Shown one piece after another: positions 8,669 to 12,641 of a DNA stretch of 33,792 bases. A program made the position numbers and the translations under genes. Every line of letters starts with the position of its first letter. Positions within the stretch are counted from its first letter, which is position 1. The stretch is taken from the IMG/VR virus record IMGVR_UViG_3300045999_004987, positions 1 to 33,792 of that record; one strand, given 5' to 3'. The stretch comes from a virus. Below the pieces are notes generated by a model. The model did no database searches, was not told where the DNA came from, and worked only from the letters and a program-made list of their open reading frames with translations.

Positions 8669-9489
8669 GCCATTGCATAGTTACTGCTCTCAACGAGCGT
8701 CCCGCGATTAGTCGGGTAATGATTAACTGCGCGAACCGTTTGAACCTAAAAGTATTCGCTGGCGTGCATTGCGATTCGGACGCGGCGGTTGTTCAAGATT
8801 ATGCCCATGAGCATGAATTGTTTTGGGCGACTAACGATCCGTCCGCAAAGTTTAACAAGGCTTTGTTTCTCGCATACGAAGCGGGCTACGATCACTTCGT
8901 TATTATGGGCGACGATGATAGCGTGAGCGATGCCGTTTTGGGTGAGCACGATCACGCGGGCTTCTCTCGCAACCACTACGTTGACACGCACACGGGCTCC
9001 ATTGGTCTTCACGACTACACGCGCAAGCATAGCTATCCTAAAGTAATCGGAGCGGGTAGAGTGTTATCACGCAAGGCGGTTGAAGATACGTGTTTCGATG
9101 TAAGAGCGGAAGTTATTCGAGATCACGACGACCCGCATTTAGGTTGGAGGGTTGGTAGCAAGTTGCATCTACCATTTAGTGTAGCCAAAATGTTTGAGCG
9201 GTTGGGCGTTGTGAAGATCACAAGCACTGACTACATTGGCTTGTGGCCCCCAAACTTGAAACGAGGCATGGATTGGCGGGCTGACTACCGTTTAATTGCA
9301 AGCGGGTACACACCTCATCTGATCGATAAGCACGACCAACGCGTACACGTAACCGATGTAAAGAGCAGCGTTAACATTTGGCCCTATTCGATTCTCGAAA
9401 AGGATTTATCGGACGCTACAATTAACGACGCGACTTGGTTTATGGATGAAGGCGAGAAAGAATATTTACTATTTTTGATTAAACACTAA
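8665..9489 (+). CDS. Glycosyltransferase-like protein (GT-A fold)
   Basis: The 274-aa product starts with a nucleotide-sugar-type beta strand (SHCIVTALNERPAISRVM), has KFNKALFLAYEAGYDHFVIMG followed by DDD (DxD-type metal site, near residue 92), and later GAGRVLSRKAVEDT and DHDDPHLGWRVG, the usual acceptor-side acidic block. It shares the order KFN, then GDDD or GADD, with the 32383 gene, so they may be distant paralogues. Phage enzymes like this may modify the host surface glycan or virion parts. The donor and acceptor cannot be told from the sequence. Confidence 0.7.
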   Translation: MSHCIVTALNERPAISRVMINCANRLNLKVFAGVHCDSDAAVVQDYAHEHELFWATNDPSAKFNKALFLAYEAGYDHFVIMGDDDSVSDAVLGEHDHAGFSRNHYVDTHTGSIGLHDYTRKHSYPKVIGAGRVLSRKAVEDTCFDVRAEVIRDHDDPHLGWRVGSKLHLPFSVAKMFERLGVVKITSTDYIGLWPPNLKRGMDWRADYRLIASGYTPHLIDKHDQRVHVTDVKSSVNIWPYSILEKDLSDATINDATWFMDEGEKEYLLFLIKH

Positions 9490-9502
9490 ACACAAATAAA
9501 CA

Positions 9503-9748
9503 ATGAAACACCAACTAACTCAAAAAGAATGGAACGACAAGCGAGATGCGTTCTTGTGTGCGATTATTCAAGGTTCTATAATTAGGGATGGCAATTATGG
9601 CTTTAATGGAGCGATTGATGTAACTAACACACTCACCTCCCAACTTTACGAAGTGGTAGACCAAATTCCTGACGTCGGGAAAAAGGCCATTCGCGCCACC
9701 CCCGAACAGTTAAGAGAGTGGTTTCCTAGTGCTTATGATAATAAATAA
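9503..9748 (+). CDS. Hypothetical protein, 81 aa
   Basis: A small soluble protein with no recognised family. Residues 1-25 are helical and polar, followed by GNYGFNGAIDVTNTLTSQLYEVV and an RATPEQLREWFP tail. It starts 13 bp after the glycosyltransferase-like gene behind an A-rich leader (AAATAAACAATG). It is the last ordinary phage gene before the AT-rich cassette-like region. Confidence 0.72.
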   Translation: MKHQLTQKEWNDKRDAFLCAIIQGSIIRDGNYGFNGAIDVTNTLTSQLYEVVDQIPDVGKKAIRATPEQLREWFPSAYDNK

Positions 9749-9749
9749 A

Positions 9750-10496
9750 ATGAACAATGTAAAAACAGAACCAATGGTGAAGCACAGTAACCAAGTTCAC
9801 ACAACAACGGATTACTTTCTATTTAAACCAATTGAAGGTAACAGAAACAAAAACCTATTGCACATCAATAGGTTAAAAAAATCAATGGCGGAAACTTACT
9901 TATTTACGGTTATTATAGTAAATGAAAAGTATGAAATCATTGATGGGCAACACCGATTTGATGTAATACAGGAGTTGAAACTACCACTAAATTACATTGT
10001 TTGCAATGGTTATGGACTTAACGAAGTTCACATTCTAAACCAAAATTCAAAGACTTGGAATGCTGATGATTACTTAACGGGCTATTCTAATTTAGGAAAC
10101 AAAAACTATTTACAATACAAAAAATTTAAAGACAAATATCAGTTTGGTCATAACGAATGTATGGCAATGTTAACAGGTGTAAATACTGGTGGCGGAAGCA
10201 TTTTTGAAGATTTTAAAAATGGTAATTTTAAAATAACTCACATTGAAGATGCTGAACAAAAAGCTGAAAAAATTTGGTTATTTAAAGATATTTATGATGG
10301 CTTTAAAAGAAGGGCTTTTGTTTACGCAATGCTCTATTTATTTGACAAGCCGCAATTTGAATTTACAGAATTTTTGCAAAAGGCAAAAAATCAACCATCT
10401 GTACTTACAGATTGCAACGATAGCAAGCAATACGTTTCTTTAATTGAGGAAATATACAATTACCGCAGACGTGAAAAGGTTAATCTTAGATACTAA
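9750..10496 (+). CDS. ParB/sulfiredoxin-like domain protein
   Basis: The 248-aa protein contains the ParB N-terminal-type motif EIIDGQHRFDVIQELKLP (core DGQHRF at 65-70), preceded by a strand VIIVNEKY and an N-terminal FKPIEGNRNKN segment. Single-domain proteins of this fold include nucleases and NTP-binding proteins linked to partition or defence. The C-terminal 150 residues are helical, rich in Lys, Phe and Asn and of unknown role. It is in the first block of the cassette-like array and ends 44 bp before an attC-like site. The start at 9750 avoids overlap with the previous gene. AT-rich codon use suggests recent transfer. Confidence 0.72.
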   Translation: MNNVKTEPMVKHSNQVHTTTDYFLFKPIEGNRNKNLLHINRLKKSMAETYLFTVIIVNEKYEIIDGQHRFDVIQELKLPLNYIVCNGYGLNEVHILNQNSKTWNADDYLTGYSNLGNKNYLQYKKFKDKYQFGHNECMAMLTGVNTGGGSIFEDFKNGNFKITHIEDAEQKAEKIWLFKDIYDGFKRRAFVYAMLYLFDKPQFEFTEFLQKAKNQPSVLTDCNDSKQYVSLIEEIYNYRRREKVNLRY

Positions 10497-10540
10497 TTTT
10501 ATGGTGGTATGTCAGTCGGCTTGTGTGTCGGCTGGCATTA

Positions 10541-10671
10541 CTGCTAACGATAGGGCTTTGCGATGTGTGGGAATAGTAGCACCACAGACCAATAATAGCA
10601 CTAAAGCATCATAGAAGTACGATGCTGAATATAAGTATTCTGGCCACATATTGCAAAGCCCCTTGTTATAT
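10541..10671. other. attC-like recombination site 1
   Basis: Two long arms can pair: 10545-10570 starts TAACGATAGGGCTTTGC and 10644-10668 ends GCAAAGCCCCTTGTTA. They match except for small bulges, and enclose a 73-nt loop with its own small hairpin (AGCATC/GATGCT). The right end CTTG-TTATAT fits the R' core G^TTRRRY loosely. Extra-helical bases between the boxes are a mark of folded attC sites. Confidence 0.75.
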
Positions 10672-10707
10672 GTTGTGCTTTTTTATTGGGGTTAAAAATT
10701 ATTAAAA

Positions 10708-10932
10708 ATGGGATTAACATCAAACAAAACAGCAAACTCAAAAGAACTTTTTAAACATTCTTTTGATTTAATGCAGCTTTTAAAGCAGAAGCTAATTACA
10801 GTAGAAGAGGCTAAGGCACAAGCAAATTTGCTTAAACAGTCTAATAATATTCTACGTTATGAACTAGATCGAGCCGTAGCAGAAAAGAAATTCGATAACC
10901 TTAATATAAGAGAAATAGAAGACAATGAATAA
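10708..10932 (+). CDS. Cassette ORF, 74 aa, helical
   Basis: This small protein is almost all helical and coiled-coil-like (KELFKHSFDLMQLLKQK, EEAKAQANLLKQSNN), with an acidic tail. I do not recognise it. It lies just inside the second cassette, 37 bp past the recombination core, as is usual for the first ORF of a cassette, and its stop overlaps the start of the next ORF by 8 bases. The two probably act together; a regulator or antitoxin-like role is possible but not supported by a motif. Confidence 0.68.
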   Translation: MGLTSNKTANSKELFKHSFDLMQLLKQKLITVEEAKAQANLLKQSNNILRYELDRAVAEKKFDNLNIREIEDNE

Positions 10933-11419
10933 TCTTTTTTATAACAACTCATTGCTTTCAAAACTTTGCGAACTACTTGATGAAATTTCAGATAATGAGG
11001 ATAAAGAAGTAATTGCAAAAATTATAAAAAAGCAAATGCCAAAAAAAACAAAATATAGTTTTTCATTGGATGAACTTTCTAGTATTACAAAAAATGATGC
11101 ATCTCATCATTCAGTAGGTGTAAGAAAATCAAAATTATTTGCAACTGAATATTTATACTCACTTTATAAAATAGACTTTGAATTTTCATATAAAGAAGAT
11201 GGCATTTTAGAAGATTTAATGTTTAACAAATGGAATGATATTATTGAAAAAATGACTGATGATTTTCAAATAACAAGGGCTTTGATTTACAAAACTATTC
11301 CTTTTGAAATTAGAATAGAAAGTATTGAAGCGTTTGACTTATATGTTACCAATGTATTCATAGAGGAATATTTGAAAATAAAAAAAGAGTATGACTTGTT
11401 GAGTGCTGTCACAGCATAG
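10925..11419 (+). CDS. Cassette ORF, 164 aa, unknown
   Basis: The product is very rich in Lys, Ile, Asn and Glu, mainly helical, with a central SFSLDELSSITKNDASHH and two Phe/Tyr-rich stretches. No enzyme motif is visible. The start overlaps the previous ORF by 8 bases and the stop is 2 bases before the R''-type core ATATAAC, so coding sequence fills the cassette as is typical. It may be a partner of the 74-aa protein. Confidence 0.68.
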   Translation: MNNLFYNNSLLSKLCELLDEISDNEDKEVIAKIIKKQMPKKTKYSFSLDELSSITKNDASHHSVGVRKSKLFATEYLYSLYKIDFEFSYKEDGILEDLMFNKWNDIIEKMTDDFQITRALIYKTIPFEIRIESIEAFDLYVTNVFIEEYLKIKKEYDLLSAVTA

Positions 11420-11420
11420 C

Positions 11421-11553
11421 ATATAACGTTTCGGGTATTGCCGAAGGTGGGGCATTAAACCACTAAAGTTAATTAAAAGTACAAAAGATGAATATAGATA
11501 CAAAAGTTTATAGAAAGCACGAAAGCCCCACTTTTGGCAATACCTTGTTAGGT
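11421..11553. other. attC-like recombination site 2
   Basis: The left arm (11424-11453) reads TAACGTTTCGGGTATTGCC and on to GGTGGGGC. The right arm (11525-11550) runs from GCCCCACTTTTGGCAATACC to TTGTTA and is its near-perfect complement. The last 7 bases, GTTAGGT, match the integron core GTTRRRY exactly, and ATATAAC opens the site. Arms enclose a 71-nt loop. Size (133 bp) is within the known attC range. Confidence 0.8.
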
Positions 11554-11583
11554 GCAGTGCCTTTGGTGTCGGAAGTGTATTTA

Positions 11584-12213
11584 ATGGATAACATCGAATT
11601 AATGAAACATTACCCTGATAAATACTTCGATTTGGCTGTGGTTGACCCACCTTATGGAATTGGTGAGGATGGGGCAAGTAGTCACAGCAGGGGCAAGTTT
11701 GCAAAACCAACATTTTACACTCCTAAAAATTGGGATAAAGAACCGCCACCACTTGAATACTTTTATGAACTATTTAGAGTATCTAAAAATCAAATTGTAT
11801 GGGGTGCAAATCACTTTATTAGTCGTATGCCTTATGATAGTAGCTGCTGGATAATTTGGGATAAAGAGAATGGCGAAAATGATTTTGCTGATTGTGAAAT
11901 GGCTTGGGCTTCATTTGGAACTGCGGTAAGACGTTTTAAATTTCGCTGGGCTGGAATGCTACAAGGCAATATGAAAGACAAAGAAATTAGAATGCCCCCA
12001 ACTCAAAAACCTGTGGCACTTTATGATTTTATTTATTCAAGATACGCTACTGAAGGAATGAAAATTTTAGATACTCACTTGGGTAGTGGTTCAAGTAGAA
12101 TAAGTGCCAACAAAAACAAATTACACTTTGTAGGTTGTGAAATTGATGAGGAATACTTTAACAAACAAAATAAAAGATATGAGGAATTTGTCAGTCAGGC
12201 TCGTTTATGGTAA
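11584..12213 (+). CDS. DNA methyltransferase, beta class (N6-adenine or N4-cytosine)
   Basis: The 209-aa product has motif IV DPPYGIG (from residue 21) before the SAM-binding motif LDTHLGSGSS (162-171), preceded by TQKPVAL (140-146); this order defines the beta class. The region between is short and would hold the target recognition part. No restriction nuclease is adjacent, so it is a solitary enzyme that could protect phage DNA from host restriction. The frame is open from an ATG at 11488, but that start lies inside the attC-like arm; MDNIELMKHYPDKYFDL is a typical start for the family. It is the third cassette. Confidence 0.88.
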   Translation: MDNIELMKHYPDKYFDLAVVDPPYGIGEDGASSHSRGKFAKPTFYTPKNWDKEPPPLEYFYELFRVSKNQIVWGANHFISRMPYDSSCWIIWDKENGENDFADCEMAWASFGTAVRRFKFRWAGMLQGNMKDKEIRMPPTQKPVALYDFIYSRYATEGMKILDTHLGSGSSRISANKNKLHFVGCEIDEEYFNKQNKRYEEFVSQARLW

Positions 12214-12223
12214 GCGGTCTGTT

Positions 12224-12244
12224 GGCATTGCACCTAACTCCTTG
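12224..12244. other. Collapsed attC-like site 3
   Basis: GGCATTGCACCTAAC (12224-12238) is complementary, with one mismatch, to the start of the same cassette (GTTAGGTGCAGTGCC, 11547-11561). It is followed at once by TCCTTG, the right end of the other two sites, so the hairpin body is missing. What follows (CTAACC) probably is the original phage sequence. Confidence 0.6.
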
Positions 12245-12276
12245 CTAACCGCACCTGCATAAAATGAAGTACAAAG

Positions 12277-12299
12277 CACCTCCACACGGGGGTGTTTTT
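12277..12299 (+). terminator. Rho-independent terminator before rusA
   Basis: A 7-bp stem CACCTCC/GGGGGTG with a 4-base loop is followed by five T, G and four T. It ends the accessory unit that carries the cassettes and shows that the longer rusA reading frame start (12264) is wrong. Confidence 0.78.
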
Positions 12300-12314
12300 G
12301 TTTTACATTGCACC

Positions 12315-12641
12315 ATGCAAAAAGTAGAAGTAAAGCCGATTTCAGTGAACACCGCGTGGAAAGGGAGGCGGTTTAAAAGCAATGCCTACAAAGCATTCGA
12401 GTACCATTGCTTGATGGCATTAAAGCCCGTAAAGATACCCGACGGCCAGCTATGCGTGTACTTCGTGTTTGCGTTCTCAAACGATGCGCAAGACATTGAC
12501 AACTCGGTGAAGATGTGCATGGATATTCTCCAGAAGAAACACGGATTCAATGACAAGCGGGTATCGCGGTTGGTGGTTGACAAAGTAATTGTGCCCAAGG
12601 GTAAAGAGCATTGGTGTTACTCGATAACGGAAAACAAATAG
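12315..12641 (+). CDS. rusA: RusA-type Holliday junction resolvase
   Basis: The 108-aa protein has the RusA core FAFSNDAQDIDNSVKMCMD: acidic residues at 60 and 62, Lys66 and Asp70, followed by GFNDKRV with Asp80. These match the metal-binding Asp residues and Lys of RusA, a dimeric endonuclease that cuts branched DNA before packaging. The start at 12315 (MQKVEVKPIS) is preferred because an upstream in-frame ATG would place a terminator hairpin in the coding region. Length is near the family norm of about 120. Confidence 0.88.
   Translation: MQKVEVKPISVNTAWKGRRFKSNAYKAFEYHCLMALKPVKIPDGQLCVYFVFAFSNDAQDIDNSVKMCMDILQKKHGFNDKRVSRLVVDKVIVPKGKEHWCYSITENK

Follow-up and report, generated by a model that had tools for sequence, protein, structure and literature searches.

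How a phage genome comes to carry a row of gene cassettes with integron-like boundaries but no enzyme to move them is the question raised by positions 9750 to 12238 of the window, by which we mean the entire IMG/VR record of 33,792 bases, including its portal, tape-measure, tail-fibre, and RecT genes. The locus consists of three recombination cassettes, and the phage genome around them is near complete (Table 1). We consider it highly probable that these are mobile cassettes of an integron-like system that is widespread in Bacteroidota, and that they have docked in the phage. An earlier sequence-only reading had described an integron-type array without an integrase, and the array is indeed real. 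All of its genes share one strand, and its AT-rich cargo (GC 0.30-0.34) differs from the neighbouring DNA (0.45-0.49). Furthermore, neither an integron integrase nor a related recombinase was detected in the whole 33.8 kb of the window phage.

The possibility of a chimeric assembly, which that reading had raised, was addressed by the contig ends and by a second contig. Bases 2-127 repeat the final 126 bases of the window (a 126-bp terminal repeat), and contig IMGVR_UViG_3300046000_005440 (L033) bridges both the window ends and the two array borders with 100% identity. Thus, the genome is close to complete and the array shows no obvious sign of being chimeric; despite its linear listing, the molecule is either circular or circularly permuted. 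Comparison of the window by DNA with the phage collection returned no near relative. A sister phage, L041, is approximately 95% identical to the window phage over much of its length. The two match at 97% over 9481-9663, and both diverge beyond that point.

Table 1. Features of the cassette array and its flanks, in window positions
Feature	Position	Strand	Remarks
Resident phage ORF, left flank	9503..9748	+	Colinear with L041
Cassette 1, 5'-truncated	9750..10548	+	ParB-like gene and right end
ParB-like gene	9750-10496	+	PHROG 12305, E 2e-31
Cassette 1 right end, GGCATTACTGCTAAC	10534-10548	+	
Hairpin site 1, attC-like, leading end of cassette 2	10545..10668	+	R1 E 6e-16; scan score 15.2
Cassette 2	10548..11427	+	Hairpin 1, two ORFs, right end GCATAGCATATAAC
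74-aa ORF of cassette 2	10708-10932	+	
164-aa ORF of cassette 2	10925-11419	+	
Hairpin site 2, attC-like, leading end of cassette 3	11424..11550	+	R1 E 2e-25; scan score 17.8
Cassette 3	11427..12238	+	Hairpin 2, DNA methyltransferase, right end
N6/N4-type DNA methyltransferase	11488-12213	+	Pfam N6_N4_Mtase E 8e-13
Cassette 3 right end, GGCATTGCACCTAAC	12224-12238	+	
Phage docking junction AAC↓TCCTTGCTAACCGCAC, attI-like	12236..12262	+	Weight matrix top 0.33% of AAC sites
Resident phage gene, RusA-like, right flank	12264..12641	+	PHROG 11573 E 6e-29; phrog_34 RusA-like E 2e-5; colinear in L041

The two long hairpins in the array, each bounded by TAACG...TGTTA and lying 755 bp apart, were confirmed. 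They are the only ones that a simple hairpin scanner returned from the 33.8 kb window, and at an equal threshold the same scanner gave a single match in 2.8 Mb of shuffled sequence. No Rfam family matched them. A covariance model (R1) was built from 54 hairpins, mostly viral sites, among which were both window hairpins; it matches these two and nothing else convincing in the window. Because the training sites are mostly viral, the recall and the polarity calls of R1 lean toward the viral type. The stems exhibit covariation, with both sides changing in 17 of 18 pairs. The + strand folds better at 55 of 64 sites, which is consistent with strand choice only; attC sites have a similar strand asymmetry but differ in details. 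A repeated motif in the hairpin loop, ACAAAAGTTnAATAGAAGn, is kept across unrelated cassettes (alignment A2, columns 40-100).

Each hairpin is also related to a sequence on the far side of a gene. In cassette 2, 12 of 14 bases at the two ends are complementary (10665-10678 against 11414-11427), and in cassette 3 the match is 13 of 14, or 14 of 15 over the length originally considered (11547-11561 against 12224-12238). Of the hairpins, 79% match their own partner end at 12 or more of 14 positions, compared with 1.6% for upstream control sequence and 4.5% with swapped ends. Position 11 carries a G/A mismatch in 50 of 50 end pairs, and only on the + strand does it make a G.T wobble. These complementary ends support the earlier proposal that the cassettes were once circular.

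Comparing vacant with occupied sites in a related lineage of phages reveals the bounds of a unit. The methyltransferase gene recurs in many viral contigs, preceded on its 5' side by a full hairpin and followed by a lone end, ...CACCTAAC, after which unrelated DNA begins. The flanks of two such contigs, L002 and L003, predicted an empty site, TGCTGATAAC↓TATNCYATTGCCGC, and an exact match to it was found in two viral contigs; the flanks of L002 and L356 are 89-92% identical. At the same phage locus, L002 holds one unit and both L003 and L025 hold two, inserted at exactly the predicted base. The insertion point is TAA↓C, equivalent to G↓TT on the opposite strand. This comparison defines the unit as hairpin, gene, and lone end. 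The hairpins had initially been taken as terminal sites of the preceding blocks; instead, each leads the cassette that follows it, and the order of gene followed by its own site is ruled out by the empty and filled sites and by the terminal partners. Similarly, what had looked like a collapsed third site (12224-12245) is not a decayed hairpin but the intact junction of cassette 3 with the docking site. Unrelated phages repeatedly show such a lone end directly abutting other DNA, and it is equivalent to the attI junction seen in the chromosomal arrays described below.

The cassettes differ in completeness and cargo. Cassette 1 has lost its leading hairpin and left end in the window, and upstream of its ParB-like gene there is no R1 match above noise. 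Intact copies, with a left end CTGTTAGCAGTAGTGCC and an identical right end, are present in L408 and L410, so the ParB block is a cassette minus its 5' hairpin. As a marker for viral cassettes the ParB-like gene mostly fails, with only a few of 79 relatives located near hairpins. The two ORFs of cassette 2 gave no convincing family match, and a search for relatives of the 164-aa ORF found none outside the same phage. The cassette 3 unit recurs with identical bounds in L002, L003, L007, L009, and L014. Its ORF starts within hairpin site 2 (ATG 11488), and a search against defence families gave methyltransferase matches alone. This enzyme most likely guards phage DNA against host restriction, as has been inferred for other phages. 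The window protein has PPTQKP where aligned relatives have HPTQKP, and its activity may be altered.

To evaluate the docking junction, a weight matrix was derived from 25 chromosomal junctions and used to rank AAC sites. The junction in the window ranks near the top, as do those of L410 (0.08%), L009 (0.04%), and L002 (0.95%), and the fit is weaker for L003 (2%), L007 (4%), and L041 (9%). At the docking point of the window, L041 carries other DNA and a hairpin-arm remnant; the left part of L041 has decayed. The matrix ranks suggest that attI-like sites are present in phages, a view supported by the differing insertions found at a single base in two lineages.

Numerous Bacteroidota chromosomes carry the same hairpins. 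R1 matches 143 of 296 genomes from this phylum, often many times (up to 78 in one genome), but only 3 of 149 Bacillota genomes, weakly, and none of 143 Gammaproteobacteria genomes, 58 of which have a true IntI. Dense arrays end at a tyrosine recombinase. Hairpins lie within 10 kb at 47 of 55 recombinase loci, where 119 of the 122 hairpins are oriented toward the recombinase, and four random control regions yielded no R1 matches. In convergent arrays, a conserved attI-like junction mostly lies 93-107 nt from the 3' end of the recombinase gene and consists of a partner end followed by a T(C/T)GTTTATA-like sequence. Across the 296 genomes, this recombinase and the hairpins tend to occur together (odds 16, p 2e-21), although Fisher p-values overstate independence because genomes share ancestry. 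Sixty hairpin-bearing genomes are without the recombinase at E 1e-60. In the recombinase-linked chromosomal arrays, the longest ORF reads toward the hairpin in 91 of 96 cassettes.

Judging from sequence, this recombinase is a relative of IntI without the IntI-specific domain, an additional domain situated near patch III. Its two catalytic motifs are separated by 60-61 residues, compared with 102 in IntI. IntI4 aligns to it in two pieces, between which 63 residues of IntI4 stand opposite approximately 21, with approximately 42 unmatched. By curated models the recombinases fall between XerA and IntI; they score 179-216 bits against the 265-bit cut-off of TIGR02249, and for most of them the best curated family is NF040815, 'XerA/integron integrase'. 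In a tree, IntI and these recombinases group apart from XerC/D (support 0.94) and IntI proteins with the insert form one clade (0.999), although added sequences lower some supports and the branching is not firm. The predicted fold (mean pLDDT 85) has the IntI4-attC complex as its nearest match. These proteins have an extension at the N terminus that bears a W..W.LP motif (alignments A3/A4), and in a 582-aa example (L288:12771-14519) this extension seems to be repeated about three times. The IntI-specific domain has been stated to be both defining and necessary for integrons (PMC9668308; PMC8138268). Because this domain is absent, we do not file the system under IntI integrons, even though by analogy it would work like one.

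A probable scheme can be drawn from these features. A unit comprises a hairpin of approximately 125 nt, one or more genes, and an end of 14 nt that is complementary to the sequence flanking the hairpin on its inner side. When single-stranded, the two ends and the hairpin may fold into one recombination site, and an IntI-related recombinase without the IntI domain, presumably supplied in trans since the phage does not encode it, would join the unit to a ...G↓TT target (here TAA↓C). In chromosomes this target lies approximately 100 nt from the recombinase gene, and the phage has a look-alike at 12236. The phage might benefit through a methyltransferase that shields its DNA.

The sequence-only reading had judged such arrays to be rare in phages, but this is not the case for viral contigs. 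A scan by hairpin DNA pattern that ignored cargo found at least 80 loci, a figure that, like all counts from viral contigs herein, is subject to the fact that IMG/VR contigs may contain host DNA. Among the matches listed, the gene reads away from its hairpin in 94 of 96 viral cassettes, opposite to the chromosomal orientation (Fisher odds 855), and in 65 of these 94 the ORF starts inside the hairpin. The window genes also read away from their own hairpins. That all cassettes are reversed in this manner is ruled out, since those linked to a chromosomal integrase have the usual orientation; the reversed state characterizes viral cassettes and a subset of host contigs with a methyltransferase. 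One 170-kb contig, IMGVR_UViG_3300043411_001575 (G605), has 38 hairpins in a single array (77-115 kb), adjoined by a related recombinase (L491:6288-7190); evidence that it is a phage is weak.

Given these data, it is almost inconceivable that the hairpins are terminators or dispersed palindromic repeats that fall between genes by chance. They do sit between genes, but the ORF starts inside the hairpin in most reversed viral cassettes among the matches listed, the flank of a hairpin predicts the partner end on the far side of the gene, and what distinguishes filled from empty sites is precisely units of this kind, a comparison that refutes this reading. A more substantial competitor is that the array is a CALIN, a set of ordinary integron cassettes that the classical IntI of the host would have moved, as reported by Qi et al. 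(2023). The CALIN definition asks for two or more attC sites inside 4 kb and no integrase close by. The TAAC...GTTA bounds and G↓TT junction are attC-like, IntI1 can use phage attC sites (PMC9892861), and true IntI occurs above the curated cut-off in 84 of 296 sampled Bacteroidota genomes, far more than the literature suggests. However, hairpins have no positive association with true IntI in these 296 genomes (odds 0.52), R1 found no hairpin beside 20 true IntI genes, the hairpins point at a different recombinase, and the end complementarity extends over 14 nt rather than the 7 nt of an R box. A search for classical IntI also gave no match at E 1e-40 in 14 genomes, nine of which have hairpins. 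We therefore regard this explanation as improbable. The sequence-only reading is right that these are site-specific recombination cassettes in a phage with no integrase of its own, most likely inserted by an enzyme acting in trans, but this enzyme is probably not classical IntI because the hairpins track the domain-less recombinase instead.

To say that the phage took up host cassettes is also an oversimplification, because viral cassettes are nearly all reversed and chromosomal integrase-linked ones are not, and because some viral contigs own such a recombinase. A refinement of the favored explanation is that phages maintain a pool of their own, with reversed cassettes, viral recombinases, and little exchange with chromosomes. 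The reversal in 94 of 96 viral cassettes (among the matches listed) against 5 of 96 chromosomal integrase-linked ones argues for such a pool, as does the clustering (support 0.90) of the recombinases of L014, L209, and L491; the L209 contig, with virion, tail, and RecT genes and 16 hairpins, is a phage. Conversely, host contigs too can contain reversed methyltransferase cassettes, which in L099, for instance, lie by a chromosomal-type recombinase, and a recombinase is present at only 2 of 80 viral loci among the matches listed. We rate this refinement at slightly below an even chance.

The favored explanation, that cassettes of a Bacteroidota integron-like system have docked in the phage, has several implications. 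Approximately half of the sampled Bacteroidota would carry cassettes that are largely unreported by current integron tools. Phages would exchange methyltransferase genes through this system, which bears on restriction and host range in nature. The IntI domain has been held to be necessary, and arrays without it make the origin of integrons directly testable. We found no account of a system without this domain in open-access full texts; subscription papers and preprints were mostly outside the search, and priority is not established. The odds seem evenly balanced for a broader proposal, in which a domain-less integron lineage near the ancestral state extends across Bacteroidota, and phages form a parallel branch in which cassettes are reversed, docking sites resemble attI, and some viruses possess a recombinase of their own along with as many as 38 hairpins per array.

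Among known systems, XerA, XerC, and XerD have an inter-motif length close to that of this recombinase, but it groups with IntI rather than with XerC/D and adjoins cassette arrays. Cassette arrays that lack an integrase and frequently include orphan methyltransferases have been described from phages (Qi et al. 2023, PMC9892861). Those phage CALINs share with the present array the lack of an integrase and the methyltransferase cargo; in the present case the genes run in reverse and a vacant docking site is documented. R1 gave only a weak match (E 0.03) in Polaribacter phage P12002L, a case from that study. For integrons, IntegronFinder 2.0 lists one complete example in Bacteroidetes proper (Salinibacter). 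Integrons in the established sense (IntI, attI, attC, including sedentary chromosomal forms) share with this system cassette arrays of one polarity, folded sites, an attI-like site by a tyrosine recombinase, the G↓TT junction, and, in the chromosomal arrays, a gene 3' end that faces the hairpin. They differ in that the recombinase described here has no IntI-specific domain and is usually convergent to the array, in the family consensus of the hairpins, the 14-nt complementary ends, and the invariant G.T position, and in that these hairpins were not found beside true IntI. Phages thus appear to share a gene-shuffling system with Bacteroidota.
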